Origin: Shewanella sp. MTB7
GTDB taxonomy: Bacteria > Pseudomonadota > Gammaproteobacteria > Enterobacterales > Shewanellaceae
Direction of reading: 5' to 3'
Assembly: GCF_027571385.1 (NCBI RefSeq)
Contig: NZ_CP085636.1
Coordinates: 6,303,001-6,367,000, forward strand
Length of the DNA stretch: 64,000 nucleotides
Of the stretch, positions 4,859 through 24,713 are shown piece by piece. The translations under genes and the position numbers were made by a program. Numbering within the stretch: position 1 is the first letter of the stretch; each line of letters starts with the position of its first letter. The notes beneath the pieces are model-generated. The model was not told the origin of the DNA and did not search any database. It worked only from the letters and a program-made list of their open reading frames with translations.

Positions 4859-6052
4859 CTATTCCGTACGAGCTTCAGCTTGACTCGCAGGCTCTGGAGT
4901 CGTAATCACTTCTTTCTCAGAAAATTTATCCACTAACAAAGAGATAGCACCATCTCCCGTAATGTTGCACGCAGTACCAAAGCTATCTTGTGCCAAATAG
5001 AGTGCAATCATTAATGCCAACTCAGCCTCACCAAAACCTAACATTGTTGCCATTAATCCTAAGGCCGCCATTACCGCACCACCTGGAGCGCCAGGCGCTG
5101 CAATCATAGTGACTCCTAGCATTAGAATAAAAGGTAACATCTCGAATAATGAAGGGATCGCGATATGCTGGCTCAATGCCATAACAGCGGTAGCACAAGT
5201 GACCAGAGTAATTGTAGAACCAGACAGGTGAATCGTCGCACACAAAGGAATGGTAAAATCAGCAATTGCAGGGCTGACACCATTTTTCTTAGTTTGCGCT
5301 AAAGTCACTGGAATGGTTGCAGCAGAAGACATGGTACCAATAGCAGTAAAATACGCTGGCAACATGGTTTTAATCAGATGAATAGGAGATTTACCCACCA
5401 CCAAACCAGCAATCGTATATTGCACACTTAGCCATAACCAATGCATCACTATAGCCAACGCCAACACAACACCAAAGGTTGCTAGGGTATCAAACACTGT
5501 GCCCTGAGCCGCCATCTCTGTGAATACACCAGCAATATAGAAAGGCAGTAATGGGATGATTACCTTGCCGAGGACCTTATCTATGATTGCCCGGCCTTCA
5601 TCAACCACTAGTTTAAGATTCAAGCTCTGATTAACACTAATACCGATACCGAATATAAATGCCAACGCAAGCGCAGTCATTACACCAAATATAGGAGGGA
5701 TATCGAGGGAGAGCAGACTCGTCAATTGGAACGTATCATTCACAGTGACAGCAGAAATATCAGTCAAGTTACTAATAACAGCGCTTGCCACTAAAAAGGC
5801 TAAACTACCCGCGATAATAGTAGAGCCATAAGATAACAATATTGTTTTACTTAACAGTGAACCGGAATTTTGTGGCAGACTGGCAATACCACTTGCAATG
5901 TAGAATAAAATAATAAGTGGAATAGTAAACCCAATCAACTGACCACCAAGTTCCTTAATGGTCAACATCATGCGAATAATAACATCAGGAGAGAACAGGC
6001 CAAGCAGAATACCTAACACAATTCCAGCAACGAGCTTTAGTATTAACTTCAT
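4859..6052 (-). CDS. Dicarboxylate/amino acid:cation symporter (DAACS family)
   Basis: Inner-membrane secondary transporter of 397 aa, about the length of SstT and GltP/DctA relatives. Eight or more hydrophobic segments alternate with two re-entrant-loop signatures: GTMSSAATIPVTL and the distal APGAPGGAV / QDSFGTACNITGDG block. The serine-rich first hairpin and the NxTGD-like C-terminal motif place it in the family. It is first in the operon with kbl and tdh, so uptake of threonine or serine is the contextual guess. The family also takes glutamate, aspartate and C4-dicarboxylates, and substrate cannot be settled from sequence. Confidence 0.88.
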   Translation of the reverse strand: MKLILKLVAGIVLGILLGLFSPDVIIRMMLTIKELGGQLIGFTIPLIILFYIASGIASLPQNSGSLLSKTILLSYGSTIIAGSLAFLVASAVISNLTDISAVTVNDTFQLTSLLSLDIPPIFGVMTALALAFIFGIGISVNQSLNLKLVVDEGRAIIDKVLGKVIIPLLPFYIAGVFTEMAAQGTVFDTLATFGVVLALAIVMHWLWLSVQYTIAGLVVGKSPIHLIKTMLPAYFTAIGTMSSAATIPVTLAQTKKNGVSPAIADFTIPLCATIHLSGSTITLVTCATAVMALSQHIAIPSLFEMLPFILMLGVTMIAAPGAPGGAVMAALGLMATMLGFGEAELALMIALYLAQDSFGTACNITGDGAISLLVDKFSEKEVITTPEPASQAEARTE

Positions 6053-6547: not shown

Positions 6548-8383
6548 CTAAACAAAACTATTAACGTCAAGACTAATATCAGGAAATGAAAAATTAAATA
6601 ATTTCAGTACTTCTCGATCATTCTCGTATCGTTTTATCCACCCATCTTTCTCCATTCTATTAAGAATTGGAATAATGTACTTACGGGATAAACCTGTGCG
6701 CTCGCGCGCTTCTGCGATGGTAAAACGTTCATGTAACTGGTAACCACAAATAATATCGGCCATTAGCTGCTCATAAACTTCGCAATCATAGTAAATTTTA
6801 CCCTCAAGTGGCACGACAAACGCCTGCCTAACCAAGTTTCTCAGCTCTTTTTGGGCACCAGCAACCTTCTCTTTATCGGCTTCAAAGCCTTGTTTATCAT
6901 TCGATCTAATCAAACCTAAAATCTTTTTGCCCACATCAGATAAGGACTCTTCTGAATGACCATTTCCCAAACTATATAACAGTTCATCGCAGCGTAACTG
7001 ACCATTATTCAGCAAGGCGGTTAACACGGGTTTAAGTGCTGAAGCGGGTATATTTAATTTGCTACTTAGCTCCATCAAAGAGAACGACATGGGCCCACTT
7101 TCTAACAGAGCTAACACTTGATTCTGTGTTGTTTGGTAACTAGCTGGGAGAAATAGCCAATCGTCACAGCGAATAATATCACCACCAAGTTCAAGATCCA
7201 TATCTTCAGCTTGAGCATAACCATACAGTTGCAGATTCAACTTAATGTAATCACACCACTGCAATGTTTCCGGTGCTTTATCAAGTAGCGCTGCCAAGAG
7301 TGTCCGCATATGACGCGGCACCATACCGGTCCACAATATACTGCCACTATTGAGAATTTTACTGCCGCCATGTTGAATCAACAAAATCCGTTGATTCCAA
7401 AAACAGCTAGCGCTTTGCTTTAGACGAATCCTAGCCAGACGAGTATCTTTAAAAAAGAAAATAGTTGCGCGCGTATTAAAAGTACCTAGAGCGACTTCAA
7501 TCTCACTGTTGTTACGACATGTCCCTTTTTCAGGCAACTCATCTAACCTAACTATACATTCATCCATGACAATGTTTTTAATATTACCTTTATTGTCTGC
7601 TGGAATTAAACAATAGCCCCGTTCAAGCTCTTTTTTCTTAACCCCTTTCAAACATACCGCTACCCGTGAAACCATCTCAGCTTTTTCAATACTCTGATGA
7701 TAAGACTGTAAACTCTTCACCTGTACTGCTTGTCCACTCGGCTGGATGATCAACTTTTGGCCAACATGAAACTCACCGCCACAAAGACTCCCAGTCACTG
7801 TTGTCCCTATGCCGTTTACGGTAAAGATGCGGTCAATATACAGATGAGCGCCTTGGGCCAATATTGGACGCTGTAGTATGCTTAATTGATGACCTATTTT
7901 CCGCTTTAATTCATTAATACCTATATCTTGATGAGCTGACACAGAGACGGAGTCAGGCAAAATTCCTGCAACATCCATAAACTGCTCTAATGCTTCCTCC
8001 TCAACAAGTTCTAGTGTCTGCTGATCGACTAAATCAGCCTTAGTGATCACCAGCAACACCTGCTTAATCCCCATGGCTTGAATCACTCTTAGATGATCCG
8101 TCGACATCTGCATCCAGCCTTCATCGGCCGCGACCACAAATAGCACCATGTCCAGACTCCAGACACCCGCCACCATGTTACGGATAAAACGTTCGTGACC
8201 AGGAACATCAATAACTCCAATCATATTGTTTTGCTCATCATTAAAATGAGCAAAACCGAGATCGATTGTCATACCACGATTTTTTTCTTGGGGTAAATGC
8301 GCCGTTTCGATGCCTGTCAGTGCTTTAATCAGAGCTGTCTTACCATGATCTACATGGCCAGCCGTACCAATTACAAAATGCAT
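6548..8383 (-). CDS. selB: Selenocysteine-specific translation elongation factor SelB
   Basis: GTPase that carries Sec-tRNA-Sec to UGA codons marked by an mRNA hairpin. Of 611 aa, the N-terminal GTPase has G1 GTAGHVDHGKT (6-16), G3 DVPGHERF and G4 TKAD, followed by EF-Tu-like beta domains and C-terminal winged-helix repeats that bind the SECIS hairpin (last helix near SRKYIIPILNRMEKDGWIKR). The length matches the bacterial family. Its start overlaps the selA stop by 13 nt, indicating translational coupling. The presence of three in-frame UGA genes nearby makes a working SelB necessary. Confidence 0.97.
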   Translation of the reverse strand: MHFVIGTAGHVDHGKTALIKALTGIETAHLPQEKNRGMTIDLGFAHFNDEQNNMIGVIDVPGHERFIRNMVAGVWSLDMVLFVVAADEGWMQMSTDHLRVIQAMGIKQVLLVITKADLVDQQTLELVEEEALEQFMDVAGILPDSVSVSAHQDIGINELKRKIGHQLSILQRPILAQGAHLYIDRIFTVNGIGTTVTGSLCGGEFHVGQKLIIQPSGQAVQVKSLQSYHQSIEKAEMVSRVAVCLKGVKKKELERGYCLIPADNKGNIKNIVMDECIVRLDELPEKGTCRNNSEIEVALGTFNTRATIFFFKDTRLARIRLKQSASCFWNQRILLIQHGGSKILNSGSILWTGMVPRHMRTLLAALLDKAPETLQWCDYIKLNLQLYGYAQAEDMDLELGGDIIRCDDWLFLPASYQTTQNQVLALLESGPMSFSLMELSSKLNIPASALKPVLTALLNNGQLRCDELLYSLGNGHSEESLSDVGKKILGLIRSNDKQGFEADKEKVAGAQKELRNLVRQAFVVPLEGKIYYDCEVYEQLMADIICGYQLHERFTIAEARERTGLSRKYIIPILNRMEKDGWIKRYENDREVLKLFNFSFPDISLDVNSFV

Positions 8384-9735
8384 ACTTCAAGTAACTCCTT
8401 CATTTGAGTCGCTACATATTCCAACTCTTTACTCGATAGCGTGGCCATGCTCAGTAACACCTTGTCATGTTTAACCATGCCGATAACAGGAATAGGCCAA
8501 CTACGCATGATATTGAGTAGTCGATCCGGGGATTGACTCATGTGAACTTGCAAGGACCAAGAGGGAAAGTTTTCATCGGGTAAGGATCCACCACCAATCG
8601 TCATTTGACTTGGTACTACACTCAATTGATCTGGGGATAAGGCTGCTAATTTTTCCGCCATAGCACGCTGCTCACTCTCAGGTCTTCGAAAACGACTTTC
8701 AGCAATCCCTCTACCCGCATTATCAGCATTCAACTTGCGCACTAATAACTCTTCCAAAAGGGAATAGATAATTCGTCCCGGCCGAAAAGCCCGCATCATA
8801 GGATTCTTTTCCATTCTCTCGATAAGCATTTGTTTACCTGTGATAAAACCAGACTGAGGACCACCGATAATTTTATCACCAGAGAAACAAACAAGGTCGA
8901 CGCCCGCTCTTAAGTAATGGCTGACACTCAATTCATCAGGAAAGGATTCGGTAGTCATACCAGAGCCTTGATCCACGGCTAAAATAACATGATCAGGTAG
9001 ATATTTTGCCAGTTCAGACAGATCCGGTGATTGAGTAAAACCACGGATCTTATAGTTAGAAGTGTGTACCACTAATACCATTGCGGTATTATCAGTTACC
9101 GCATCGAGATAATCTTCCAACGTCGTGATATTGGTTGCACCAACCTCGACCAATTTTGCACCTGACTGTGCCAAAATATCCGGAATACGAAAGCCACCTC
9201 CAATTTGAACTTGCTCTCCCCGTGAAACAATGACCTCTTTACCTTTAGCCAGTTCATGCAACATCAAATAGATAGCGGCAGCATTATTGTTAACCACCAA
9301 GGTGTCCTCACCTTTTACTAACTCGTGCATCAGTCTAGGAAGCATGCCTTTACGCTTACCCCGTTTCCCCGTGTGCAGATCAAGTTCAAGGTTACAGTAG
9401 CCGGTATTGAGTTCTGTCACCGATAGCCACAACTCGGGATCAATGGGAGAGCGACCTAGGTTCGTATGAACCACCACGCCAGTGGCGTTAATGACCTTTC
9501 TCAGACGTTGGCGTTGGAAGGTTTTACAGCTAAGTTCTATGAGTGAATAGAGTCGATCACTACTGAAATGAGAAAAACCACCGGCATCAATGCACTCTTG
9601 CTTATATTCAGCAACGATATTCTTGACGATACGGGAGACAAACTGACGACTTAAGGTTTCAACATAGGGAGCAAGAAAAGGTTGTTGAATTATTTTTTCA
9701 ATTTGGGGAAATTGGGCAGCATTTTGGATAGACAT
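8371..9735 (-). CDS. selA: L-seryl-tRNA(Sec) selenium transferase
   Basis: PLP enzyme converting Ser-tRNA-Sec to Sec-tRNA-Sec with selenophosphate. The 454-aa protein shows the family's N-terminal tRNA-binding region, the INATGVVVHTNLGRSP motif (82-98), and the PLP-lysine Lys288 in FSGDKIIGGPQSG. The length is close to the usual ~460. It lies 91 nt downstream of selC on the same strand and overlaps selB, so selC-selA-selB is probably one transcription unit. Confidence 0.97.
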   Translation of the reverse strand: MSIQNAAQFPQIEKIIQQPFLAPYVETLSRQFVSRIVKNIVAEYKQECIDAGGFSHFSSDRLYSLIELSCKTFQRQRLRKVINATGVVVHTNLGRSPIDPELWLSVTELNTGYCNLELDLHTGKRGKRKGMLPRLMHELVKGEDTLVVNNNAAAIYLMLHELAKGKEVIVSRGEQVQIGGGFRIPDILAQSGAKLVEVGATNITTLEDYLDAVTDNTAMVLVVHTSNYKIRGFTQSPDLSELAKYLPDHVILAVDQGSGMTTESFPDELSVSHYLRAGVDLVCFSGDKIIGGPQSGFITGKQMLIERMEKNPMMRAFRPGRIIYSLLEELLVRKLNADNAGRGIAESRFRRPESEQRAMAEKLAALSPDQLSVVPSQMTIGGGSLPDENFPSWSLQVHMSQSPDRLLNIMRSWPIPVIGMVKHDKVLLSMATLSSKELEYVATQMKELLEVCIL

Positions 9736-9826: not shown

Positions 9827-9918
9827 TGGCGGAAGGAGCAGGAATCGAACCTGCCACGGCTAATAAAGCCGACATCGGTTTTGAAGACCGCGGAGACCAC
9901 CAGATCCCATCCACTTCC
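9827..9918 (-). tRNA. selC: tRNA-Sec (anticodon TCA)
   Basis: The minus strand encodes a 92-nt tRNA with CCA included. The acceptor arms GGAAGTGG (5') and CTCCTTCCGCCA (3') frame it; the anticodon loop reads CTTCAAA with anticodon UCA; the variable arm is long (GTCGGCTTT...AGCCG) and the T arm GGCAGGTTCGATTCCTGCT is intact. The 8-bp acceptor and extra-long variable arm are the marks of bacterial tRNA-Sec. It sits immediately upstream of selA. Confidence 0.97.
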
Positions 9919-10400
9919 TTATTTGTTGCAATGAACAATACAGACTCACCTAACCCTATTCAACTTGATAAAATTGAACTTGTGAGCTAACTAACAAAAT
10001 AACAGTTTTTATAAAACAAAGAGAGATCGAGTATCCATAATTGATAAAAACAAATTTAAACCCATTGATTTAGCATAAAAAAACCGGTTCTAAATTAAAG
10101 TTAAAACCATACCTAACCAACTGAAAAATAATGAATAATAAAACATTTAAGCAACATGCTAATCATTAGTAAATGCTAAAAAATCCAAAACTTATTAATG
10201 AAGAATAAAATAATAAACATAATGACAAAGCCCAACAATAGATTAGTATTACAGTGAATAATCTATATATTTAACTGATAAAACTACTGAGAACTTTATC
10301 TAAAAAGGTTAATAACCTGAAAAGTTTAAGTTCAGATTAAAATTAATACCATAACGTCAACACTCCATAAAATACATTACTAATACTGAGTGATTTAATA
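9919..10400. other. Divergent intergenic region selC / grdX
   Basis: Very AT-rich 482-nt stretch that must hold the promoters of selC-selA-selB (minus) and grdX (plus). AACCGGTT near 10082 is a short palindrome. No further structure or reading frame is evident. Confidence 0.6.
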
Positions 10401-10793
10401 ATGAATAAAAAACTTATTTTAATATCAAACAATCCTAGCTTACTCAATGACATGTTATTTCCAACTCAGATCGTTGCCGAGAGTAATATTGATGTTATTA
10501 ACCAATGCAGAGATCAAATCCATGCAGGGGCCAAATTAGTAACACACCCTTTAGCGGGTAGTATAAAACCTTGGGAAACGCCTTATCGATCTATATTAAT
10601 ACAAGTTAAACCAGAAATTCAGGGGCAGGCCTCTCTAGATATGCACTCATTAGAGATGATTGAGTCCGCAATCCAAAAATACAATACCAAACTAGTAGGG
10701 ATTAATAAACCTAAACCTACCCTCAAGTCAGATGCTGACTTTCAATTAGTGGATAAAGAACTCATGTTGTCGGCTCTAAAATCGCTACGCTAG
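10401..10793 (+). CDS. grdX: GrdX-family protein
   Basis: Small cytoplasmic protein of 130 aa resembling GrdX, the accessory protein of unknown function encoded with glycine/betaine/sarcosine reductases. The family pattern is visible: N-terminal ILISNNP, a central THPLAGSIKPWETPYRSILI block (given here as HPLAGS and KPWETPYRS), and a C-terminal DxxLM segment. In Firmicutes grdX is usually inside or ahead of the operon on the same strand; here it is on the opposite strand, convergent with grdB, and shares a terminator with it. No signal peptide or membrane segment is seen. Assigned from recalled family pattern and context. Confidence 0.8.
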   Translation: MNKKLILISNNPSLLNDMLFPTQIVAESNIDVINQCRDQIHAGAKLVTHPLAGSIKPWETPYRSILIQVKPEIQGQASLDMHSLEMIESAIQKYNTKLVGINKPKPTLKSDADFQLVDKELMLSALKSLR

Positions 10794-10802
10794 TTCGACC
10801 AA

Positions 10803-10830
10803 TAAAAAAGCCCCATTCGGGGCTTTTTTA
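10803..10830. terminator. Bidirectional terminator between grdX and grdB
   Basis: Stem GCCCC-ATTC-GGGGC (10810-10823) is flanked by A6 and T7. It ends both the plus-strand grdX and the minus-strand grd operon. Confidence 0.9.
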
Positions 10831-10853
10831 TTCACAACAAACAGCAAGAGTGA

Positions 10854-12149
10854 TTAAAATACCGTTTGATCGGTTATCTCAGTCATCAGACCCTTAATCG
10901 CCTTTTCTACCAACATACGACGTTGGTGCTTCTCTTCCTCTGGCGTTGCTTTTGGATCGCCCAGTGGATGCGGAATAGCAATCGCTGGAACAATACGGTT
11001 AGCACCGACAGTTAAGGAGATAGGGACCACAGTCGCAATATGAACAACTGGCATTACTTTTTCAATTTCTTTTAGCATCGTTGCACCGCAACGAGTACAA
11101 GTGCCTCAAGTGGATGTAAAAATGGCAGCAGTAACCCCGGCCTTTAGCAGTTCCATGGCGATGGCTTCACCATAAGCTTTAGAGTTAGCAACAGAGGTAC
11201 CATTACCCACAGTTGCATAATAGATATCATGCAACTTACCAATCTTACCTTCTCTTTCCATATCACGTAGAACATCGACAGGTAAAACTCGGTTTGGATT
11301 CTGATTACAGGCAACTGGATCATAACCACCGTGGGCAGTTTCATGGGTCTCAGAAGTAATAGTATCCAACCCTTCAATGCTATAAGTACCAAACTTTGAT
11401 GCACTGGAAGACTCAATCCTATCTGGATTCCCTTTAGGTACCACACCACCAGACGTCACTAAGGCAAATACTGCGGTAGTGGGATCAAGTATCGCAGGTT
11501 GGGGGTCAACACGATCGAACACCGGCATTGGGTATTCAGTAGTGGTAGTGCCCTCAAGCTTAGCAATTAACATATCAACTGCACGCTCAGAGCCGCGCTT
11601 ATCAGCAAAATAGTTAACCCTTAAGCCACGAGGCATATAACCTTCATCTTCAGGCGAGCCTAACTTACCTTCAGTTTCAATAAAACGATTGATAAGATGT
11701 GCCATAGCAGGAGCGGCTTTTCGCATGCCAGCTGCACTGTTCGATGTTTCTGCAAAATAGGCAAAATTACGGAACATCTCGTAACCAGGGTTTTCAACAT
11801 AGATGCCTGAAATCGTAGTAATACCCAGTTCATGGGCGACTTTTGCCACCATACCACAAGCCATACCATAACGGCCGGCGTTAAATGCAGGTCCCGCTAC
11901 GACTAAATCAGGCTTAAGCTGTTGCAGTATCTCTTTAATGCCGTAACAGCTCAGTGATTCATTTTCGTTAAAATATGAGTCACCACAAATAATGGTATGA
12001 GTAATTTCACCCTTACCTGCCATTGCAGCGTTTAACTGCGCGCCCACACCGACTTGGCCTTCAACAACCTCCATCGGAATATGTGCCATCTCTTCGCCGC
12101 CTTTTTGGCCGAAGAACTGATTAATATAATGTACAACTTTAATTGTCAT
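10854..12149 (-). CDS. grdB: Glycine/betaine/sarcosine reductase selenoprotein B (Sec-containing subunit)
   Basis: Substrate-binding selenoprotein of the reductase: with GrdE it splits the amine from its substrate and passes a carboxymethyl group to GrdA. The reading frame is interrupted by TGA at 11106-11108, which is Sec348 of 431 residues: ...TAAIFTST-U-GTCTRCGATML... The STUGTCTRCGA context is the signature of the family. N-terminus VVHYINQFFG is also typical. A hairpin begins 12 nt after the UGA. Last gene of the operon, 12 nt after grdE. GrdB, GrdF (sarcosine) and GrdH (betaine) are too alike for the substrate to be decided by eye. Confidence 0.95.
11079..11093 (-). promoter_or_regulatory. 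SECIS-like hairpin after the grdB UGA
   Basis: On the mRNA, CGUUGC-GGU-GCAACG forms a perfect 6-bp stem with a GGU loop, starting 12 nt after the UGA. In E. coli fdhF the SelB-binding upper stem-loop starts 11 nt after UGA and presents GGU in its loop. Stem, loop and spacing are read directly; SelB binding is inferred. Confidence 0.7.
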
Positions 12150-12161
12150 AACAACCTCACC

Positions 12162-13454
12162 TTAACCTTGCTTAGATGTTAAGTTATGGAACCCAAGTTC
12201 GCAGGTAGCACCAAGAATGGCCTGCAACTCCACGGTGATAGAGCCATCGGCATGTAAACTACCGTCAAATCCACCCGCAACCGTATCAGCATAAGAATCC
12301 AACCCAATAACACGCTGCATTGGCGGCAGAGTGATCAACTGGTTAGCATTACCGTTAGAGATCACCGCATCTGCCGATGGATGTGCATCAGCCAGTGACT
12401 GACTCTCGCCATTTTGACCAGCATACTCATCGGTCATCAAAACCACTTTCAAGCCAGCTTCAGTCAACTTACGGCTGTTCATGATCAAGTCGGCGTCTGG
12501 ATTACCAAAGCCCTCTTCACTGACAATGACGGCATCCCAGCCCATCTGCGTTGCCAACTTGGCGACGAAATTAGATGAACGCTCTTTGTCTTTCAACGTC
12601 ACGTTCTCGTTAGTCACAATGACACCCATGAAGTTATATTTACTGCCATGATGTTTATAAAGATCGTGAATAACAGGACTATTTTGATGAATATAAGAGG
12701 TGTTCTTATCACAAGCAGAAACACAGTTGCCGCTGGTGATAGCCCCATCCATCACTTCTGTTGGATACATTAATGTTGGCAAGATCCCTTTCACATCAAC
12801 ACCATAATAATAGGTGTCATGCAATAGTCCCTGACTTTGCAACATGTAGATATAGCCCACTTTAGGCAGTTCTGGATACAAGGCAGCCTGCTCTAACATA
12901 GGCTTAGTTTCGTAGGTCTCGATCTCATCAGGTGTGGCTGAAATAGACAACTTACCTAACCAACGTGCCGCTTCATGCCCAATCATGCGTAAGATAAATT
13001 CGTGATCGTATTGATTGCACTTGTCATTAACTTCACAGGTAATAACCAGATTCATCAGTGAGGAGTAAGGAGTATATTCAGCACCAGGACCACTCATGTC
13101 GATGATACCTTCTTGGAATCCGACTATGCTGCCTGTAGTGACAACTGACATACCTTTAAGTACATGAGTACGCCCTTCACCAACCATATCCTCTTCACCA
13201 AGATGGCGACCAGGGAAAATATGACCTTTCCCTTCAACCTTCACTCTAGGCTCGATGACATCTTTGACTGGCATAATACGGGTACTATCACCCGGCTTGG
13301 CAATGGCCAGTTCAATGCTTGAAATGCGATGATCAATGTCAACGAGGAACGCATTAAGTTCCTGCTCATTAATCACCAGTTTATTTCCGAGTAATTCACT
13401 TTGTGGCCCAAAGACCAAGTCACCAATGTGAATGTTGCCAACTTCAAGTTTCAT
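12162..13454 (-). CDS. grdE: Glycine/betaine/sarcosine reductase component B proprotein (pyruvoyl subunit)
   Basis: Partner of GrdB. The family is made as a ~47-kDa proprotein that cleaves itself to two subunits, generating a pyruvoyl group from cysteine to form a Schiff base with the substrate amine. The 430-aa product keeps the cleavage pair Asn243-Cys244 in the context ITSGNCVSACDKNTSY, very near Cys242 of the studied enzyme. ATG at 13454 gives MKLEVGNIHIGD, the standard N-terminus; an upstream in-frame start would run into selD. Lies 55 nt after selD and 12 nt before grdB. Confidence 0.95.
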   Translation of the reverse strand: MKLEVGNIHIGDLVFGPQSELLGNKLVINEQELNAFLVDIDHRISSIELAIAKPGDSTRIMPVKDVIEPRVKVEGKGHIFPGRHLGEEDMVGEGRTHVLKGMSVVTTGSIVGFQEGIIDMSGPGAEYTPYSSLMNLVITCEVNDKCNQYDHEFILRMIGHEAARWLGKLSISATPDEIETYETKPMLEQAALYPELPKVGYIYMLQSQGLLHDTYYYGVDVKGILPTLMYPTEVMDGAITSGNCVSACDKNTSYIHQNSPVIHDLYKHHGSKYNFMGVIVTNENVTLKDKERSSNFVAKLATQMGWDAVIVSEEGFGNPDADLIMNSRKLTEAGLKVVLMTDEYAGQNGESQSLADAHPSADAVISNGNANQLITLPPMQRVIGLDSYADTVAGGFDGSLHADGSITVELQAILGATCELGFHNLTSKQG

Positions 13455-13509
13455 GGATATCTCCAAATAACACGACAATAGATGGTATGTAACATTAGTT
13501 TCTAACAGA

Positions 13510-14553
13510 TCAGAAAATCCTGATCCCTTCTCCATGTTCGGCATGTCCAACCACCCAACATGGTTCACCTAGCTTAGAAAATTCTTGTAATAATTCAGGC
13601 AAACTTGCTTTCGGCACAGCAGCAAGCAAGCCGCCAGAGGTTTCTGGGCAACACAGTTTCAGCCGCCACAGTTCTGATAAGTCATCGGAAAAATGTAATC
13701 GCTGCCGATACTCATCCAGATTTCGTTTAGCGCCGCCAGGAAGGAGTCCCTGCTCGGCATACTCCTTCACACCATCAAAAAAGGGCACTGCATTAGCATC
13801 AATATGTAAACAGACGCCACTCTTCTCCGCCATTTCCAGTCCGTGCCCTAAGAGGGAATAACCGGTAATATCGGTGCAGGCTTTAATGGGATAACGAGAG
13901 AATATTTGAGCCGCGCTGCGGTTTAGCGCTTTCATGCTGTTAGTGGCTAGCTGAATATGCTCAGTCGTCGCCTTGCCCCGTTTAGCCGCCGTTGAAACCA
14001 CGCCGTTGCCTATGGGTTTAGTCAACACCAACACATCTCCAGCAGTAACAGCGGCTTTGGTTTGCACTTTTGAAGGGTGAATAATACCCATGACCGACAG
14101 GCCAAATTTGGGTTCGCTATCTTCAACGGTATGACCGCCGACTAGCACGGCGCCAGCTTCGCGCACTTTATCTGCGCCACCTTTGAGAATTTGTGCCACA
14201 ACTTCATCAGGCAATTCAGGCGGAACACAGAAGATATTCATCGCCAGAGTTGCTTCGCCGCCCATGGCATAAACGTCACTTAATGCATTGGCTGCTGCGA
14301 TAGCGCCAAAATCATAGGGATCATCGACAATGGGGGTAAAGAAATCCAAAGTTTGGATAACGGCTACATCGTCATTTATTTTGTAAACCGCAGCATCATC
14401 ACTAACGGCTAGACCAACCATAAGGTTAGGGTGTTCATGTTCAGGGAACAAAGGGGTTATCAAACGCAGAACCTGCGCCATGGCACCAGGGCCAATCTTA
14501 GAGGCTCAACCCGCTTTCTTGGTCATTTGCGTCAAACGCACTTTATCGCTCAT
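13510..14553 (-). CDS. selD: Selenophosphate synthetase, itself a selenoprotein
   Basis: Makes selenophosphate from selenide and ATP for SelA. The full frame starts at ATG 14553 (MSDKVRLTQM) and reads through TGA at 14506-14508 as Sec16 in TKKAG-U-ASKIGPG, the catalytic position that is Cys in E. coli SelD. Total 347 aa. The GGHTVEDSEPKFG and conserved Asp/Gly nucleotide-binding motifs are present. A hairpin begins 11 nt after UGA. It sits inside the grd operon between grdD and grdE, with an intrinsic terminator just upstream. Starting at the later ATG 14481 would lose the catalytic residue and is rejected. Confidence 0.96.
14481..14494 (-). promoter_or_regulatory. SECIS-like hairpin after the selD UGA
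   Basis: The mRNA segment UGGC-CCUGGU-GCCA starts exactly 11 nt after the UGA, with GGU in the loop. The stem is short (4 bp), but position and loop match the E. coli fdhF SelB-binding element. Confidence 0.6.
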
Positions 14554-14628
14554 GTCTAACTCCAAAATTTAGGGAATAGAGCCTGCTTAATAAAAGCCAA
14601 CCTCTGCTACTTAACCATGTCTTTATCT

Positions 14629-14655
14629 AAAAAATGCCCCGCCGCCATGCGGGGC
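14629..14655 (-). terminator. Internal terminator between grdD and selD
   Basis: On the minus strand GCCCCGC-ATGGCG-GCGGGGC is followed by ATTTTTT. It stands 22 nt after the grdD stop and ~75 nt before the selD start, so it separates trxB-trxA-grdA-grdC-grdD from selD-grdE-grdB or allows only partial read-through. Confidence 0.8.
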
Positions 14656-14676
14656 TTTCATAGCAATTAAACTGAC

Positions 14677-15831
14677 TTACAAATACTGCTTAGTGTGTAA
14701 GTGTTCTCTAGCCTTATCTTTATCTGCCGCCGCAATCATCACTATCGGACCGGTACATCCCATACCAGTTCGGGCAAAAATCCCCACAGACCAAAGAGAT
14801 TCACAAGCATCTTCAATCTCAAGAATATCGATACCACTAATGTCTGCATCGGTGATTTTTGTCGCTGGCGCGACCACCACAGGTTTAGTTGCGACTTCCG
14901 TTTTAGCTTGTTTTAGCTCAGTTAAAATCAGATCTAAACCCGCTTTCTTTGCCAACTTCATCTCAGCTTCGGTAATCGCTAGTGCCTGACCAATAACTGC
15001 GTCTGCACATAATCGCATGGCTCCAGCAATAACAGGGGCACCGGATGCGCGCGAGATAATTGCAACCAGATGCTGGCTGCCCTCTCCCAATCCAGGACCA
15101 TAACCGTAACCCGATGCTTCGTAGCTGCCACCTGTAGTAAATGATGAGAACATCTTCATCATTAAATTACCGGTTAGACTATCAGTCACCATCACATCTG
15201 GCGTGCCCTTAAGCAGGTCATTACCGCGCATACACACGCCACCATCTTCACGAGAAGACTCGGTAAACCTGATGTCATAACCTTGCTGTTGCAATCTTTT
15301 CAGATAGCGTTCCACCAGCGCAGCACCATCAATATTCAGGATGCCCACCGTCGGCTGGTTAATTCCCGTCGCCTTCGCCAGAGCAATACCATTAATGGTA
15401 TTTTTCAGCATAGCCGCAATGCGATGGGTATCCGTTGTGCCAGTGGTAGAAGCTATTATCATCTCTCGTCCAAGAGATGGCGTAACAACTTTACCAAACG
15501 TACTTACCCCTAATGGAAAGTTGTAATGCAGGGTGACACAGCCGTCTATCTCATTGTTTTTAAGGAGTGCTTCCATCACACTGTGGCAAGCATGCAGATC
15601 ATCAGCTTGATGCAGTTCAAACTCAGTTTCTATCGTTTGACCGATAAGCACAGGCTCAATATCTGGATACTGACGAGCCACCATCTTTGCGGCACGGTGC
15701 AACTCATCAGCGCCATGTTCACTGCCGACTAAGGTTAACCCTATACGTTTTTTTGCACCAAACTGACCACTTAACAAACCATCAGCCATATCACTGAAAA
15801 TATCAGCAAGCTGTTTGTTTATGTTACCCAT
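14677..15831 (-). CDS. grdD: Glycine reductase component C, GrdD subunit
   Basis: With GrdC it forms protein C, which takes the carboxymethyl group from selenoprotein A as an acetyl thioester and releases acetyl-phosphate. The 384-aa protein has the C-terminal motif RTGMGCTGPIV, whose Cys is residue 359, the same number as the known active-site thiol Cys359 of Eubacterium acidaminophilum GrdD. The fold is related to phosphate acyltransferases (PlsX-like). Begins 13 nt after the grdC stop. Confidence 0.95.
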   Translation of the reverse strand: MGNINKQLADIFSDMADGLLSGQFGAKKRIGLTLVGSEHGADELHRAAKMVARQYPDIEPVLIGQTIETEFELHQADDLHACHSVMEALLKNNEIDGCVTLHYNFPLGVSTFGKVVTPSLGREMIIASTTGTTDTHRIAAMLKNTINGIALAKATGINQPTVGILNIDGAALVERYLKRLQQQGYDIRFTESSREDGGVCMRGNDLLKGTPDVMVTDSLTGNLMMKMFSSFTTGGSYEASGYGYGPGLGEGSQHLVAIISRASGAPVIAGAMRLCADAVIGQALAITEAEMKLAKKAGLDLILTELKQAKTEVATKPVVVAPATKITDADISGIDILEIEDACESLWSVGIFARTGMGCTGPIVMIAAADKDKAREHLHTKQYL

Positions 15832-15844
15832 AATCGCCTCCTGA

Positions 15845-17392
15845 TTACTTAGCGCTGTCTTGTTCGAGTGTCAGCATGTTTTGGGCAACATTTTTCATCG
15901 CCTCGGCAATCAATTGCTTGATACGAGCTTCATCAATACCTGAGTCTGTGGTAATACCTGGGTTCTTTTGCACCACGAAACTCAAACCATCAAACAAGTT
16001 GGTCATACGTCCGAGGAACAAGCTGCCCTTACCCACCATCATAAAATTATTGATATCGCCATTGAGGATCATATCGCGACCAAATCCTACAAATGGCACA
16101 CCTGATGGAATGTGGCCCTGAGTCGGTGCCCAACCAGGCATACCGTGCTCGATGACAAAATCAGGCAACTGTTTACGGTCCAGTAAGCCCTCTTTTACTG
16201 CAAGTGCAGCAATCATTTTGTAGTTAGCTTCTGGCACGTTTCCGGCACCAGCAGGCTTGGTAATTTCTGGGTTGTGCATTTCGACAGAATACTTGTCAAT
16301 TTGCAGCATTGTCATACCATTATCTGTTAATGGCTTAGAGATTAAGCTGGTCATCACCGCTTGTGGCGATGAACCAGTCCCCACGGTATGGCGACCAATA
16401 ATGTCAGTATTAATGATCGGGTTTACCCCATCATTCTCGCTGATTAGACAAGCAAACCCAGCCAACACATCTTCCAATACCGGCATATTTTTAGCGACAT
16501 GATCGCGGCCATTCATGCCTAGTTTGGCTACGGCGCCACCGGCAACAACCAAGACATGTTTAAACACGCCTGCTTTAACCAAGGCCGCGGCGGTGGTAAA
16601 TGCATGAGCGGGAGCGGCGCAGAATCCACGTACATCAGAACCAGTGGCATTAATACAACCGGAAGATTCACCGATGGCTTTGGCAAAGTTACCACCACCA
16701 CGTTGATTGACATCTCCACACGCTTCTTCAGAACACTCGATAATGTATTCAACAGTCGACAGATCTATCCCTTGAGTCTTGAGGTTTAATACTGCAATAA
16801 CTCCGGTAGCCTTGGCGCAGAGATTTTCTAACATAATATGGCCAGACAAGTTCTCATCTTCGTCATGAGCTTGTTTTACACAGCCGACAAGTTCGCCGTT
16901 AAGGATAAGCGGCTCAGCCTGATGTAAATCAACGAAGGCCTGCATTTTCGCCATCGTTTCAGTATTCGCGTCCTGTAGCAGGTTCAATGCTCCCAGCACA
17001 GGATGATCGTTAAATTTATCTTGATAAGCAGCAACAAACTCAGGAGAAAGCAGTACCAGATCAAACACATCTACATGTTGTAGTAAGGCATAAAACTCCT
17101 CCTCACTCAGGATGTCACCGTATTTACCTAAGCGTTCAGCATCAGCTTTGTGCTCATACCAGGGCTGTGACAAATCAGTCAGTGCTTCAGGCATAATATT
17201 ACCGATATAACACTGGTTAGCCGGATAAGCGACAACCTCATTGTAGGGCCGTAAGTGATCCTGCAACTGCTGAAGATAAGGATCTTGTGGGTTTCTTTTA
17301 CGAGTAGCAACCTGAACTGCACCGTGCTGAACTAAAATATCCGGTGTATGAGCAAGGATATAGCTAATGCCTTTAATTACTGCAAATCCCAT
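15845..17392 (-). CDS. grdC: Glycine reductase component C, GrdC subunit
   Basis: Larger subunit of protein C (515 aa), distantly related to beta-ketoacyl-ACP synthase III. The family blocks YIIECSEEACGD, GCINATGSDVRGFC and CAAPAHAFTTAAALVKAG are visible, as is the distal HGMPGWAPTQGHIPSG block. Length matches the clostridial protein (about 510 aa). It lies 72 nt after grdA and 13 nt before grdD, in the same operon. Acts in the cytoplasm on carboxymethyl-Se-GrdA. Confidence 0.95.
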   Translation of the reverse strand: MGFAVIKGISYILAHTPDILVQHGAVQVATRKRNPQDPYLQQLQDHLRPYNEVVAYPANQCYIGNIMPEALTDLSQPWYEHKADAERLGKYGDILSEEEFYALLQHVDVFDLVLLSPEFVAAYQDKFNDHPVLGALNLLQDANTETMAKMQAFVDLHQAEPLILNGELVGCVKQAHDEDENLSGHIMLENLCAKATGVIAVLNLKTQGIDLSTVEYIIECSEEACGDVNQRGGGNFAKAIGESSGCINATGSDVRGFCAAPAHAFTTAAALVKAGVFKHVLVVAGGAVAKLGMNGRDHVAKNMPVLEDVLAGFACLISENDGVNPIINTDIIGRHTVGTGSSPQAVMTSLISKPLTDNGMTMLQIDKYSVEMHNPEITKPAGAGNVPEANYKMIAALAVKEGLLDRKQLPDFVIEHGMPGWAPTQGHIPSGVPFVGFGRDMILNGDINNFMMVGKGSLFLGRMTNLFDGLSFVVQKNPGITTDSGIDEARIKQLIAEAMKNVAQNMLTLEQDSAK

Positions 17393-17464
17393 TTGAAGCT
17401 CCTGAATATCAAGATCCGGATCCAGAGATTCTCTGAACCCGGTTATTACATGTTTAAATGACGG

Positions 17465-17932
17465 TTAAAGATATTTACCAAACTGGGTACGGTAGCTTTT
17501 CACTTCAGCCACAATTTCGTCTACATCTAATACCATTTCCATCATGCCAATTTGTTCGTCATAAACGTCCGCATTGACTGCATTTTTTACTTCTGGCTCA
17601 ACCACATGGTAACAAGAGAGTCCTAACTGAACTCCGGCTAGTGGACCTGCAAAAGTTGGATCACCGTTGGTGACAGTTTCACACGCAAGGCCTGAAGACT
17701 CAGCTTCAGCACCACCAAGAATCACGACCACATTTTCTGGTCCATATTCTTCAGCGAGTGATTTGATCCGCTTTTGATTTTCTAGATCCATAGCGCCTGC
17801 GCTTGTTCAGACAAAGCATTCTGTAGTAGAGAACAGCACTTGGGCACCCGTAGTGTTAATGCAAGCTTCGATTGCTTGACCAGGAACACCATCTCGATCA
17901 CCTAAAATAATGACTTTTTTATTAGTGAACAT
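17465..17932 (-). CDS. grdA: Glycine reductase selenoprotein A
   Basis: Small selenoprotein carrier: its selenolate receives the carboxymethyl group from component B and, after acetyl transfer, is re-reduced by thioredoxin. Starts at ATG 17932 ([20 protein letters not shown]). TGA at 17807-17809 is Sec42 in [15 protein letters not shown], the CxxU redox motif of the family (Sec44 in E. acidaminophilum). Total 155 aa, usual for GrdA. An ATG after the UGA would yield only 108 aa without the active site. A 12-nt self-complementary stretch AGCGCAGGCGCU lies only 3 nt after the UGA, so the SECIS placement is less clear than in selD and grdB. Confidence 0.97.
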
Positions 17933-17948
17933 CTTATCTCCAAAGGAT

Positions 17949-18263
17949 TTATAGATACTTTTTAATAGTGGAAGCGATCTCAGCTACTTCCAGTTCTTCT
18001 CCGCAAAGATGCTCAAGCTTCTCTCCGTTTTTATAGAACACGATTGATGGTAGCCCCATCACTTTTTGAGCCATAGCCAAGCGGCGACTACCTTTTATAT
18101 CCAACTTACAAAATTTGATTTGTGAACCAAACTCTTCCGCTAACTTAGTAATATCAGGCATCAACTCCATGCAACGACCACAGCTTTCGCTCCAGTAATC
18201 CACTAACACCACACCATCGATATTTACTTCTTGTTCAAAATTATCTTTATTAAGTTCAATCAC
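17949..18263 (-). CDS. Thioredoxin-like protein with CGRC active site
   Basis: Probable electron donor to selenoprotein A. The 104-aa thioredoxin fold has the redox motif Cys28-Gly-Arg-Cys31 in [14 protein letters not shown] instead of the usual WCGPC, and the cis-proline loop [11 protein letters not shown]. The Trp before the first Cys is displaced and Pro is replaced by Arg, changes expected to alter redox potential and partner choice. It lies between trxB and grdA with spacers of 12 and 16 nt, the same arrangement as in clostridial grd operons. Confidence 0.93.
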
Positions 18264-18275
18264 TATTCTTGCTCC

Positions 18276-19487
18276 TTAAAAAAGTTTATCTAAATCATTC
18301 ATGTTGTTGACTAAAACTCGTTTAACTTCCTTACCAGCTTCGAAACGAATAATCAAAGGGATCTCTTTAACATCAAAGCGGTTAGATATAATTTGGCTTT
18401 TGTAGGTATCGAGCGTAACAATGCGTAAATCAGGATAGATCTGACAACGAGTTTCCAATTCACCAATAATCTCTAAGCTCTGAGGATTAGTCGGCGACCA
18501 GAAAACAACTAAAGCAGAACCATCGAAATGACCGACTTTTTCCAGCCAATTTTCTTCCTCTTCGATATAACGATCCGCAGCTACCGCAGCAATGGCTCCA
18601 TCACCGGCAGCAGTAATAACCTGACGCAGATAAGTATCGGTCACATCACCAACAGAGAAAATGCCTGGAATATTGGTTTCCTGCTTTTCGTTGACCTTGA
18701 TATAGCCTTGAGGCGTTAACGCAACTAAATCTTTTACAAAACCAGTTCTTGGGACTGTGCCGACGAACATGAATACACCATCACAAGGCACTGCTGTTAT
18801 CTCGCCAGTTTTAAGATGCTTTAGCCGCACACCTGTGACGAGTTCATCACCAGCAATTTCATCAACAACTGAGTTCCAGACGAAGTTAATTTTCTTGTTA
18901 CTAAAGGCTTGTTCCTGAGCGGTACGATCAGCATCGAGAATACCTTCATCATGCAATACGATCATGGTGACCTTATTGACAAACTTGGTTAGGAATACCG
19001 ACTCTTCAACGGCCGTATTACCACTACCCACCACCACCACATCGAGAGCTTCATAAAAATCTGCATCGCAGGTCGCACAATAAGAGACACCTTTACCACG
19101 AAACTCATTTTCACCTTTGATACCCAGTACGCGAGGCGCTGCACCAGTACCTATCACTATGCTCTTTGCCTGTAACTCTTCACCAGTTGATGTGGTCACT
19201 GTTTTAAAGAAACCATCGGCAGAAACACAGATACTATCAACGGTCGCTTTTTTAAATTCGACACCAAACTTTTCACAATGAGCTCGAAATTGCTCCATCA
19301 ACTCAGGACCCGTCGCTTCCAAAATGCCTGGATAATTTTCCAGTTCATTTGTCGTTGCAGCCTGGCCTCCCACTTTGCGTTTTTCTTCTAAAATAAGTGT
19401 TTTCATTTTACCGCGTGCCGCATAAACCCCAGCGGACATACCGCCTGCACCAGCACCAATAATGATGATGTCATATAGATCAGACAT
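18276..19487 (-). CDS. trxB: Thioredoxin reductase with C-terminal thioredoxin-fold extension
   Basis: FAD/NADPH enzyme that reduces the neighbouring thioredoxin. FAD motif GAGAGGMSAG (11-20), active disulfide Cys137-Ala-Thr-Cys140 followed by DADFYE, NADPH motif GSGNTAVEE, and GIFSVGDVTD. At 403 aa it is about 85-90 residues longer than ordinary TrxB. The extra part, from about residue 315, resembles a thioredoxin domain (ALVVFWSPTNPQSLEIIGEL, then IPLIIRFEAGKEV) but has no cysteine at the CxxC position. ATG 19487 was preferred over 19499 because GGAAA lies at suitable distance. First gene of the operon. Confidence 0.93.
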   Translation of the reverse strand: MSDLYDIIIIGAGAGGMSAGVYAARGKMKTLILEEKRKVGGQAATTNELENYPGILEATGPELMEQFRAHCEKFGVEFKKATVDSICVSADGFFKTVTTSTGEELQAKSIVIGTGAAPRVLGIKGENEFRGKGVSYCATCDADFYEALDVVVVGSGNTAVEESVFLTKFVNKVTMIVLHDEGILDADRTAQEQAFSNKKINFVWNSVVDEIAGDELVTGVRLKHLKTGEITAVPCDGVFMFVGTVPRTGFVKDLVALTPQGYIKVNEKQETNIPGIFSVGDVTDTYLRQVITAAGDGAIAAVAADRYIEEEENWLEKVGHFDGSALVVFWSPTNPQSLEIIGELETRCQIYPDLRIVTLDTYKSQIISNRFDVKEIPLIIRFEAGKEVKRVLVNNMNDLDKLF

Positions 19488-20009
19488 AATATTTTCCATT
19501 TAATTGATAATAATTACTTATAGAAATGTCATCAGATATGCGGCAGCACTTATCTAGCCAAGCTGACAACAGGGAGAAAAATAATTGAATAGAATGATGT
19601 GAAAACACTGACGTTTGCAGTCTTGATTGAAAGCAGAAATCTAACTCGAAAAAAGCTAGTAAATAAGAGGTGAGCACCTTTATGTTATTTAATATTTTAC
19701 AATAAAAAACAATATGTTGGCATGGGTGATTTGCACAGGTCAACTCAGCTATACTAGCGAGATGATAAGAAACTCAACGATGTTGATTTGCTATATTTAC
19801 CATTACAAAAAATCCGTCTTAATTACTTTAATGACCAAAGATTAAAGCTAACCCATTTAAATTATTGTGAGCTGACGCTTGTTTCTATACTTATTTTTCA
19901 TTATAAATCACAAATAAACATCATTAGAAAAACTAATGATACTTAAACATATAAATACATCTATGTACTGATAGTTAAATTAATTCATATATATCATTAC
20001 TTTTTCTAG
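19488..20009. other. Upstream region of the trxB-grd operon
   Basis: This region of 522 nt lies between trxB and the LysR gene, both on the minus strand, and should hold the operon promoter. I looked for glycine-riboswitch core motifs on the minus strand and found none. A short palindrome AGGTG-AG-CACCT occurs near 19668-19679. Short open frames here have no convincing features. Confidence 0.55.
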
Positions 20010-20891: not shown

Positions 20892-20942
20892 GATTATCTA
20901 TTCCATCTAACCAAATGTGTTGAACGAATCTACACCATTTAG

Positions 20943-20958
20943 TTCGTTTCAATACGAA
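20943..20958. promoter_or_regulatory. Candidate LysR operator
   Basis: TTCGT-TTCAAT-ACGAA, an interrupted palindrome between the divergent LysR and ureohydrolase genes. It contains the T-N11-A pattern usual for LysR boxes. Assigned by position and symmetry only. Confidence 0.4.
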
Positions 20959-21049
20959 TTACACTTCTCATATTTCGTATTTACCTAAAGATATAAATCG
21001 TTGATTTTAATAAATGAGAGTTTGATCTTAATTTATCTAGGAGTGAAAT

Positions 21050-22033: not shown

Positions 22034-22043
22034 CTACCCCACG

Positions 22044-22067
22044 GCAAGCTATTCCTCTATAGCTTGC
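22044..22067. repeat. Inverted repeat after the ureohydrolase gene
   Basis: GCAAGCTAT and ATAGCTTGC (9 bp, 6-nt loop) form a perfect hairpin 10 nt after the stop codon. There is no T-run, so it may stabilise the mRNA end or attenuate transcription into the EamA gene. Confidence 0.6.
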
Positions 22068-23681: not shown

Positions 23682-24713
23682 ATGGAAATACTTATAGGAA
23701 TAGCGGCGTTATTCGCCATGTTAACCCTGTTTTCACTCATCAGCCTCAAAGCACCTAATGGTCGCGCGGCCATGTCCGGTTTAGCTGATGCTGCTATCGC
23801 GACATTCTTGATTGAAGCAATTCACAAATACATCATGGGTGATTTTTTAGGTTTCACTTTTCTCGGTGAAACAGGGGCTGTTTTAGGTGGGCTGGGCGGT
23901 GTAGCTGCAGCAACACTTGTGATGCTACGCCTCAAAGTTTCACCAGTATATGCCGTCATTACCGGCCTTTCTATGCTCAACCTAGGCATACTAGAAGGCT
24001 TTGTGGTGGGATATACCTTCTCCTTTATCATCCCAATATTTCAACGCCGTCTACCAGAAGGCTTAGATATAATAGTTATCGCTCTGCTACTGGCACCAGC
24101 CGCTCGCATAGTCGGTCTGGAAATATCACCTAACATTCAGTTAATATTAAGCATAATATCCAATGCCATTACAGGTGCGACTTACGCATCTCCACTACTA
24201 ATGGGTCTATTCTTGGGTGGCATAATCAAGATAGTTTGTACCTCACCGCTTAGCTCTATGGCACTGACTGCCATGATGGGACTTACGGGACTGCCCATGG
24301 GTATCGCTTGTATTGCCTGTTTTGCAGGTTCATTTACCAATGGCTACGTTTTCTACAAACTAAAACTAGGTAACCGCGCTAACATCACTGGTGTAATGTT
24401 AGAGCCATTAACGCAAGCGGCAATCACAACACGTCACCCTATTCCAATCTACGGTTCAGATTTCATCGGCGGAGCATTAGCAGGTATGGTTGCAGTCTCC
24501 TTTGGGATCAGTGTTGATGCACCGGGTACGGCAGCCCCTATTCCAGGCATGTTAGCGCCCTTTGCTTTCAACCCAGCATCAGAAGTGTTAACCGTGCTAG
24601 GCATCGCCATGGTATGTGGACTTGTCGGCGGTATGATAGGTGTGAAAGTTTACCAAATGTTCAATAAGAAACCTCTTGAGACAATCGCAACTCCAGATGC
24701 ACCAGCAAGCTAA
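23682..24713 (+). CDS. PTS IIC-like integral membrane protein (PTS_EIIC_2 / PfoR type)
   Basis: 343-aa membrane protein with about nine to ten hydrophobic segments rich in Gly and Ala, typical of the PTS_EIIC_2 group of putative sugar-permease IIC proteins. Motifs include GLADAAIATFLIEAIHK near the N-terminus and STxPIYGSDFIGGALAGM-like text (PIYGSDFIGGALAG). No IIA, IIB, HPr or sugar enzyme gene is adjacent, so it stands alone and its substrate is unknown. A bidirectional terminator follows at once. Confidence 0.78.
   Translation: MEILIGIAALFAMLTLFSLISLKAPNGRAAMSGLADAAIATFLIEAIHKYIMGDFLGFTFLGETGAVLGGLGGVAAATLVMLRLKVSPVYAVITGLSMLNLGILEGFVVGYTFSFIIPIFQRRLPEGLDIIVIALLLAPAARIVGLEISPNIQLILSIISNAITGATYASPLLMGLFLGGIIKIVCTSPLSSMALTAMMGLTGLPMGIACIACFAGSFTNGYVFYKLKLGNRANITGVMLEPLTQAAITTRHPIPIYGSDFIGGALAGMVAVSFGISVDAPGTAAPIPGMLAPFAFNPASEVLTVLGIAMVCGLVGGMIGVKVYQMFNKKPLETIATPDAPAS

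Follow-up and report, generated by a model that had tools for sequence, protein, structure and literature searches.

Gene content of the locus

The stretch analysed here (the window) comprises 64,000 nucleotides of the Shewanella sp. MTB7 genome (contig NZ_CP085636.1, positions 6,303,001 to 6,367,000), and positions are counted from its first letter. The strain comes from the Mariana Trench, at a depth of 5900 m (PMC10059138). The window carries an operon for a selenoprotein reductase (grd) of the glycine/sarcosine/betaine family, together with genes for the decoding of selenocysteine (Sec) and for threonine breakdown. The MTB7 genome is one contig of 6,367,435 bases, of which 435 lie beyond the end of the window; the proposed position of the locus next to the chromosomal origin is plausible.

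Genes were assigned by matching open reading frames (ORFs) to Pfam, NCBIfam or Rfam families. On the minus strand, the order is trxB, trx, grdA, grdC, grdD, selD, grdE, grdB, then selC, selA and selB (window 6.5–19.5 kb). The initial annotation had trxB to grdB contiguous on one strand, with grdX at the end and selC-selA-selB adjacent. As a correction, grdX lies on the plus strand (10401..10793; NF038093, 102.8 bits, cut-off 40) and converges with grdB. The sequence between these two genes contains a GC-rich hairpin with A and T runs on its flanks (10804..10830). The hairpin is terminator-like in both directions and appears below threshold in two Rfam alignments.

Selenoprotein A is encoded by grdA (17465..17932, minus strand, as are all genes of this and the next paragraph). 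Its GRDA domain (PF04723, 267 bits; NF040748, 269 bits) contains the CxxU motif as CFVU. Selenoprotein B is encoded by grdB (10854..12149), with the motif UxxCxxC (PF07355, 503 bits; TIGR01918, 597.7 bits, cut-off 65). The two subunits of component C are encoded by grdD (alpha, 14677..15831; NF040747, 550.7 bits, cut-off 350) and grdC (beta, 15845..17392; NF040746, 763 bits, cut-off 450). GrdD keeps Cys359. Its motif TGMGCTGP was found in 22/34 sources; the 12 without it include partial ones, though the grdD of locus L002 is complete. For grdE (12162..13454), the preferred start is 13454, giving 430 aa, because the family match (PF09338, 650.6 bits) covers residues 39–466 of a longer ORF, which overlaps selD. 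GrdE has a single Asn-Cys pair, N243-C244, in the putative cleavage site SGNCVSACDKN, as would be expected of a proprotein; the Asn-Cys motif was found in 29 of the 32 loci searched. The active-site residues listed in the initial annotation are all present: Cys359 of GrdD, the Asn-Cys pair of GrdE and the CxxU of GrdA. A structure search gave no meaningful match to solved structures for GrdB or GrdE.

The trx gene (17949..18263) encodes a clostridial-type thioredoxin (NF047697, 144 bits, cut-off 140) and is followed in the order of positions by a trxB-like thioredoxin reductase gene (18276..19499; TIGR01292, 338 bits, just below the cut-off of 343.45). The reductase has a C-terminal thioredoxin-fold extension (PF00085 at residues 314–396, 24.6 bits, cut-off 23.5) without CxxC, the sole CxxC of the protein being at residue 141. 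In most gene-bearing relatives the trxB matches cover about 400 residues, so the extension seems common to them. The Sec genes are selD (13510..14553; TIGR00476, above cut-off), selC for a tRNASec with anticodon UCA (9831..9918; ARAGORN; RF01852, 66.8 bits, cut-off 47; fold), selA for selenocysteine synthase (8371..9735; TIGR00474, 504.8 bits, cut-off 268) and selB for the Sec-specific elongation factor (6548..8383; TIGR00475, about 291–292 bits, cut-off 242). All four genes of the Sec-decoding trait are therefore found at the locus.

UGA codons and predicted selenocysteine decoding

One in-frame UGA is present in each of grdA (codon 42), selD (codon 16) and grdB (codon 348), exactly at the Sec positions, as had been noted at first. 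The predicted Sec proteins have 155 aa (GrdA), 347 aa (SelD) and 431 aa (GrdB). Conservation of these codons was checked in the window and related loci using a motif search permitting any residue at the Sec position. UGA was found there in 34/34 grdB, 37/37 grdA and 20/22 selD places, and chance is excluded because the codon is kept so consistently. Next to no credence can be given to the alternative that the codons are stops in decayed genes: nothing speaks for it beyond the UGA codons themselves, the frames continue past them in all 34 grdB and 37 grdA places, and grdB carries a Sec insertion sequence (SECIS).

The grdB SECIS lies directly 3′ of the UGA (11068..11105, minus strand) and was detected with Rfam RF01990 (SECIS_4, 55.5 bits, cut-off 38). 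Codon usage at the same place agrees. At conserved residues of 25 gammaproteobacterial genes, codon variation was 0.57 bits for codons 1–14 past the UGA vs 1.14 bits elsewhere, and none of 156 windows was as low; judged from this alignment, the grdB codons behind the UGA are constrained beyond the needs of the protein. For selD, the UGA and candidate SECIS hairpins lie at 14455..14508 (minus strand). Post-UGA codon variation was 0.41 vs 1.02 bits, with 4/262 windows as low (16 genes). Two short hairpins (7 pairs) are conserved in 12/12 distinct rows. They show a single compensatory change, from G-C to A-U, and 35/500 shuffles did equally well, which makes this weak evidence. Two results on grdA weigh against a complete set of decoding signals: post-UGA codon variation was 0.89 vs 0.92 bits with 12/36 windows as low (33 genes), and a SECIS sought by fold, by Rfam at relaxed threshold and by codon constraint gave no signal. 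Folding energy was not taken as evidence, because the z-scores were unremarkable (grdB –0.69, selD –0.13, grdA 0.26) even for the comparators (native formate dehydrogenase SECIS 0.58, locus tRNASec only –0.97).

The initial annotation credited the locus with its own Sec machinery. This is correct as to selC, selA, selB and selD, but the set is the second one of the cell: a native selA-selB-selC set and a UGA-free SelD are found elsewhere in the genome. A genome search gave two SelB above cut-off (496 bits and about 291–292 bits); the cut-off was exceeded in 2/14 control genomes. Two tRNASec scored above the RF01852 cut-off (83.4 and 66.8 bits). Since 5/14 control genomes also exceed this cut-off, the match alone is no proof; both genes were accepted because ARAGORN agrees and each adjoins selB or selA. 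The gene beside the UGA-free selD has an N-terminus which we take to resemble selU. The native selB, selA and antisense selC adjoin a formate dehydrogenase N gene with one in-frame UGA. Its SECIS belongs to SECIS_3 (74 bits), as against SECIS_4 for the grdB at our locus.

The two SelB proteins are 26% identical overall, 35% in the N-terminal half and 18% in the C-terminal half. The C-terminal half of SelB holds the SECIS-binding domain. The native tRNASec has at least 8 acceptor pairs and the other one a 7-bp acceptor stem with a bulged U. By gene content and divergence, MTB7 is predicted to possess two complete Sec-decoding systems, one native and one linked to grd. Within the genus, SelB was found at E 1e-75 in 49/129 genomes. 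Two Shewanella genomes (G055, G110) carry two SelB each, both scoring as native type. The antisense selB/selC overlap of native Shewanella has already been published (PMC8124441). The Secmarker survey reported a 12-bp (7+5) tRNASec in Gammaproteobacteria, which the grd-linked tRNASec of MTB7 resembles, and two complete Sec operons with two non-identical tRNASec in Photobacterium profundum 3TCK (PMC5330540). Compared with the 3TCK case as outlined there, MTB7 has one tRNASec with a 7-bp acceptor stem and another with at least 8 bp, and its SelB proteins are only 26% identical.

In relatives, two or more SelB were found in at least 6 of the 23 grd-bearing genomes: five at E 1e-70 and P. profundum, whose third-type SelB (L172) was missed by the scan at that threshold. 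P. marinum has three selB, each by a different client: formate dehydrogenase N, grd, and an operon that we infer from its genes to be of formate-hydrogenlyase type. In the latter, formate dehydrogenase is split by an in-frame UGA. P. indicum and P. profundum share the third kind of selB and the same operon, as do two Shewanella genomes that lack GrdB, the stretches compared there ending short of the formate dehydrogenase gene. The third-kind cassette selC-selA-selB lies directly before this operon in L170 (G136:C34), L171 (G134:C1), L172 (G135:C50), L181 (G028:C1) and L182 (G058:C1); a Phosphonate-bd family gene is near it in L181 and an ABC ATPase gene in L182. Behind the cassette of an Aliivibrio metagenome-assembled genome (MAG), a putative selenate ABC transporter protein is encoded (TIGR04553, 365 bits). 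At L002:15631-17163, the grd-linked selB is followed by genes for a putative selenate ABC transporter, one matching TIGR04553 and one for an ATPase; the Phosphonate-bd gene of L181 is of the same family as the former.

We read the pattern in relatives as one of client-linked Sec cassettes; each SelB might serve its own clients only. Expression of clostridial grd in E. coli reportedly required the cognate selB. Conversely, the two systems of MTB7 could be redundant, with either SelB and tRNASec serving all UGA sites and the second cassette a mere passenger. The native system indeed already adjoins a UGA-containing formate dehydrogenase, and a single SelB was found in 17/23 grd-bearing genomes. 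Given the divergence of the SelB proteins, above all in the C-terminal half, the different SECIS families and tRNASec, and the fact that Sec cassettes stay with their client operons in relatives, redundancy appears rather unlikely.

Probable substrate and possible threonine supply

By the family matches above, the locus can be filed as a member of the glycine/sarcosine/betaine reductase family; it was not filed as a glycine equivalog because MTB7 GrdB scored 592 bits with the glycine model (TIGR01917, cut-off 602.2). The initial annotation had left the choice between glycine, betaine and sarcosine. GrdB gave 583 bits with the sarcosine model (cut-off 800) and 463 bits with the betaine model GrdH (cut-off 775). 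The sarcosine reductase pair GrdF/GrdG gave 583 bits (cut-off 800) and 576 bits (cut-off 780). As controls, A. noterae scored 944 bits with the glycine model and E. gilvus GrdH 792 bits with the betaine model. Two of the six gammaproteobacterial relatives scanned scored highest with glycine (Aliivibrio MAG, 583 vs 579; P. profundum, 600 vs 594).

Several of these scores tell against glycine. The glycine cut-off is missed by 10 bits in MTB7, and it is passed by a P. acidaminophilum GrdF control (696 bits, yet 858 with sarcosine). The sarcosine score leads in Kistimonas (609.5 vs 608.9), Wohlfahrtiimonas (609.4 vs 608.1, glycine second), Yokenella (607.5 vs 593) and the second Parendozoicomonas copy (583 vs 552). 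None of the six relatives reached the sarcosine cut-off, and the Kistimonas and Wohlfahrtiimonas proteins passed the glycine one. The profile models clearly argue against betaine and fail to separate glycine from sarcosine.

Other evidence came from gene neighbourhoods and from GrdE. Halanaerobium has two reductase sets, set 1 passing the glycine cut-off and set 2 the betaine cut-off. In Halanaerobium congolense, a tandem glycine riboswitch lies upstream of grdX-grdE-grdB (L027:5575-5763), and the set 1 preceded by this riboswitch is the nearest outside neighbour of the gammaproteobacterial GrdB clade. No glycine riboswitch was detected in the window at the gathering threshold, nor in 19.3–24.8 kb at E 1. 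The GrdE cleavage site of MTB7 (SGNCVSACDKN) is common to A. noterae, Halanaerobium set 1, Kistimonas and a Deltaproteobacteria MAG. The other sites compared were SGNCVAPCDKV in one GrdG, SGSFMP in two GrdI-type proteins and SGNCVAASDKV in the second Parendozoicomonas copy.

Glycine is favoured because MTB7 has the same motif as the glycine-type sets in the comparison, unlike GrdG or GrdI, because the riboswitch precedes the nearest Halanaerobium set, and because an AgcS carrier gene lies downstream of grdB in XeTr1. We regard glycine, on these comparisons, as the likeliest substrate, and hold this view with reasonable confidence. Sarcosine is nearly equal in score. A reductase for sarcosine, betaine or another small acid, with a B component forming its own specificity class, would explain why MTB7 GrdB stays below every cut-off and why sarcosine scores higher in 4/6 relatives. 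This is unlikely: MTB7 GrdB is separate from GrdH by identity (46% vs 62% against the two sets of Halanaerobium) and also in the GrdB tree, the phylogenetic check proposed at the outset; the cleavage motif differs from the GrdG and the two GrdI compared; two gammaproteobacterial relatives pass the glycine cut-off; and a BCCT carrier follows each reference GrdF and GrdH set, with none among the assigned ORFs of the MTB7 locus.

A possible source of glycine is encoded on the same strand beyond selB. There, tdh for L-threonine 3-dehydrogenase (2513..3544; TIGR00692, 581.9 bits; NF003808, 630.8 bits, both above cut-off) and kbl for glycine C-acetyltransferase (3585..4796; TIGR01822, 672.8 bits, above cut-off) are followed by a gene for an SDF-family sodium:dicarboxylate/amino-acid symporter (4859..6052; PF00375, 279 bits). 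The symporter is weakly SstT-like (53.7 bits with the SstT model, below its cut-off of 308). Both tdh and kbl are second copies, the native kbl being at C1:122898-124088 with the native tdh, 82–83% identical, beside it. The Kbl of the locus is 72–76% identical to native Shewanella Kbl, the native copies being mutually 84–97% identical; for Tdh, the values are 81–84% and 86–99%. Only this identity gap was used from the kbl comparison. The kbl tree is weakly supported, with 1/11 inner branches starred and several rows shortened to 320–353 aa.

In Kistimonas asteriae, the genes behind grdB are SDF, kbl, tdh and PTS_EIIC_2, in that order, the SDF protein (L019) being 38% identical to that of MTB7. 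An Oceanospirillales MAG has a PTS_EIIC_2 gene directly behind grdB. The tdh and kbl genes of the locus suggest a route from threonine to glycine and on to acetyl phosphate. C. sticklandii is described as having such a route from threonine to glycine and acetyl-CoA by Tdh and Kbl, plus glycine reductase (PMC3091704). MTB7 would be alike in feeding a predicted glycine reductase by threonine dehydrogenase. It differs in that C. sticklandii is an amino-acid-fermenting clostridium and the MTB7 genes lie in one insertion of a Shewanella.

Two results speak against a dedicated supply. The kbl-tdh pair was found beside grd in only 1 of 25 gammaproteobacterial loci (in the available flanks, several of which are short), and the MTB7 proteins are less similar to those of Kistimonas (Kbl 70%, Tdh 75%) than to those of Shewanella. 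The shared SDF-kbl-tdh order may be convergence, because the Kistimonas proteins are the less similar ones. Tdh, Kbl and the SDF carrier could then be unrelated neighbours of a reductase that uses imported glycine only, as would fit the Photobacterium loci and the Aliivibrio MAG, which have no tdh-kbl within the flanks examined. We find this somewhat doubtful, though a real contender, as both genes are second copies inside the insertion and share the order behind grdB with Kistimonas.

Insertion, ancestry and proposed role

The insertion site was delimited by comparison with other Shewanella genomes. Eight were found and four examined; in all four, the TonB receptor gene and glmU adjoin, a few hundred bases apart, and the stretches examined gave no match to any ORF of the MTB7 insertion. 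In MTB7 the gap is about 22 kb (window about 2.3–24.8 kb). It contains tdh, kbl, the SDF symporter gene, selB, selA, selC, grdX, the grd operon, a LysR gene, a ureohydrolase gene, an EamA gene and a PTS_EIIC_2 gene. By this comparison, the operon is part of an insertion of about 22 kb. The LysR, agmatinase-family ureohydrolase (TIGR01230, 184.9 bits, cut-off 174.3) and EamA transporter genes (20010–23103) had no match among the 13 stretches compared. The PTS_EIIC_2-family membrane protein (23682..24713, plus strand; PF13303, 203 bits) is a possible permease.

The edges are less clear than the content, and two points weigh against a sharply bounded mobile unit. The TonB receptor is 60–63% identical to those of the relatives vs 81–93% for the next two genes; the left edge may therefore lie further left, because this receptor has diverged compared with its neighbours. 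No flanking repeats or GC shift were seen at the ends of the insertion. No integrase or transposase was found among its assigned ORFs, some small ORFs being outside the scan. The search for a mobile element by repeats, base composition and assigned ORFs gave nothing. In a plasmid collection, GrdB matched 6 records and SelB 1, all typed as non-mobilizable and 0.8–2.6 Mb in size. Left of the window, at about 6293480–6299940 of the contig (G000:C1; L178), more MTB7 ORFs lack a match in the four Shewanella stretches. This is perhaps a second insertion.

GrdB was found in 1/129 genomes of the genus Shewanella. In an even sample of 369 genomes across the class, MTB7 itself was the single genome with GrdB; this thin sample returned none of the other grd-bearing gammaproteobacterial lineages. 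A scan of species genomes gave 33 grd loci. Twenty-five are gammaproteobacterial (14 Photobacterium, 1 Aliivibrio MAG, 8 Endozoicomonas-like or Oceanospirillales, Yokenella and Wohlfahrtiimonas), two of them sharing one genome. The 8 others belong to Halanaerobium and kin, clostridial groups, Candidatus Lithacetigena and a Deltaproteobacteria MAG. The operon order is identical in Photobacterium and the Aliivibrio MAG. GrdB trees were made with 21/26 gammaproteobacterial places (window, L002–L026) and with 12. The gammaproteobacterial copies form one clade (100/99) with Halanaerobium set 1 as its neighbour; MTB7 pairs with the Aliivibrio MAG (100/99), beside Photobacterium. The SelB tree, in which several branches are long and flagged, gives the same pair (97/94). 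The Sec cassette and the enzyme would thus have moved together, because both trees give this pair. The donor was probably, by these trees, a relative of the Vibrionaceae line and not a sampled Photobacterium.

The horizontal acquisition suggested at first is supported by the rarity of GrdB in the genus, by the site without insertion in 4/4 relatives and by both trees. Its novelty is reduced. The core finding, a grd operon of horizontal origin, is already published for MTB7: the genome paper describes an operon of grdB, grdE, selD, grdD, grdC, grdA, trxA and trxB with selA and selB nearby, reports more than 70% identity to Photobacterium and absence from neighbouring Shewanella, and proposes horizontal transfer (PMC10059138). 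The passages of that paper on the operon mention neither selC nor grdX, nor a second Sec system or the limits of an insertion, and its main text has 0 occurrences of ‘threonine’ and ‘formate dehydrogenase’ (PMC10059138). A grd cluster and a transferred Sec trait were reported for P. profundum in 2005–2006 (PMC1242214, PMC1794560), and the cluster is described as expressed and pressure-induced (PMC1239915, PMC3505737). By our comparison, the P. profundum cluster is homologous to that of MTB7, with selD, selA, selB and selC; a divergent SECIS and a transferred Sec trait are described for it. Unlike in MTB7, grdA occurs twice at the P. profundum locus, and tdh-kbl is missing from the flanks. MTB7 GrdB groups with the Aliivibrio MAG and not inside Photobacterium. 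A search limited to open-licence full texts found no report of the extended insertion, of the proposed supply from threonine or of a second Sec system that has diverged.

Taken together, we consider it probable from gene content that MTB7 acquired horizontally a metabolic island of about 22 kb encoding glycine reductase and all that it needs. Its parts would be the enzyme (GrdA, GrdB, GrdC, GrdD and GrdE), the electron donors (Trx and TrxB), a Sec cassette (SelD, tRNASec, SelA and SelB) and a glycine supply (Tdh and Kbl). Threonine would be oxidized by Tdh and cleaved by Kbl to acetyl-CoA and glycine. If the clostridial chemistry applies, GrdB and GrdE would bind glycine and transfer a carboxymethyl group onto the GrdA Sec, acetyl phosphate would be released by GrdC and GrdD, and the complex would be re-reduced by NADPH via TrxB and Trx. 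The SelB and tRNASec of the island would decode the three UGA codons, alongside the native system linked to formate dehydrogenase. Fermentation of threonine could then yield two acetate and at most two ATP, because one NADH from Tdh balances one two-electron reduction.

A broader reading is offered tentatively. Among marine bacteria such as these, Sec decoding may be modular, with formate dehydrogenase N, glycine reductase and formate-hydrogenlyase-type operons each carrying their own SelA-SelB-tRNASec and SECIS dialect as parallel, largely insulated systems (two in MTB7, three in Photobacterium marinum). By adding threonine-derived glycine, the MTB7 island would make a transferable, redox-balanced selenoprotein fermentation. 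If true, the 21st amino acid would be served by two or three translation systems working in parallel in one cell. Such cells would be a test bed for the co-evolution of SelB, tRNASec and SECIS and for building mutually insulated Sec insertion. An ATP-yielding amino acid fermentation of anaerobes, and the recoding machinery that it uses, would have been transferred whole into a deep-sea Shewanella.

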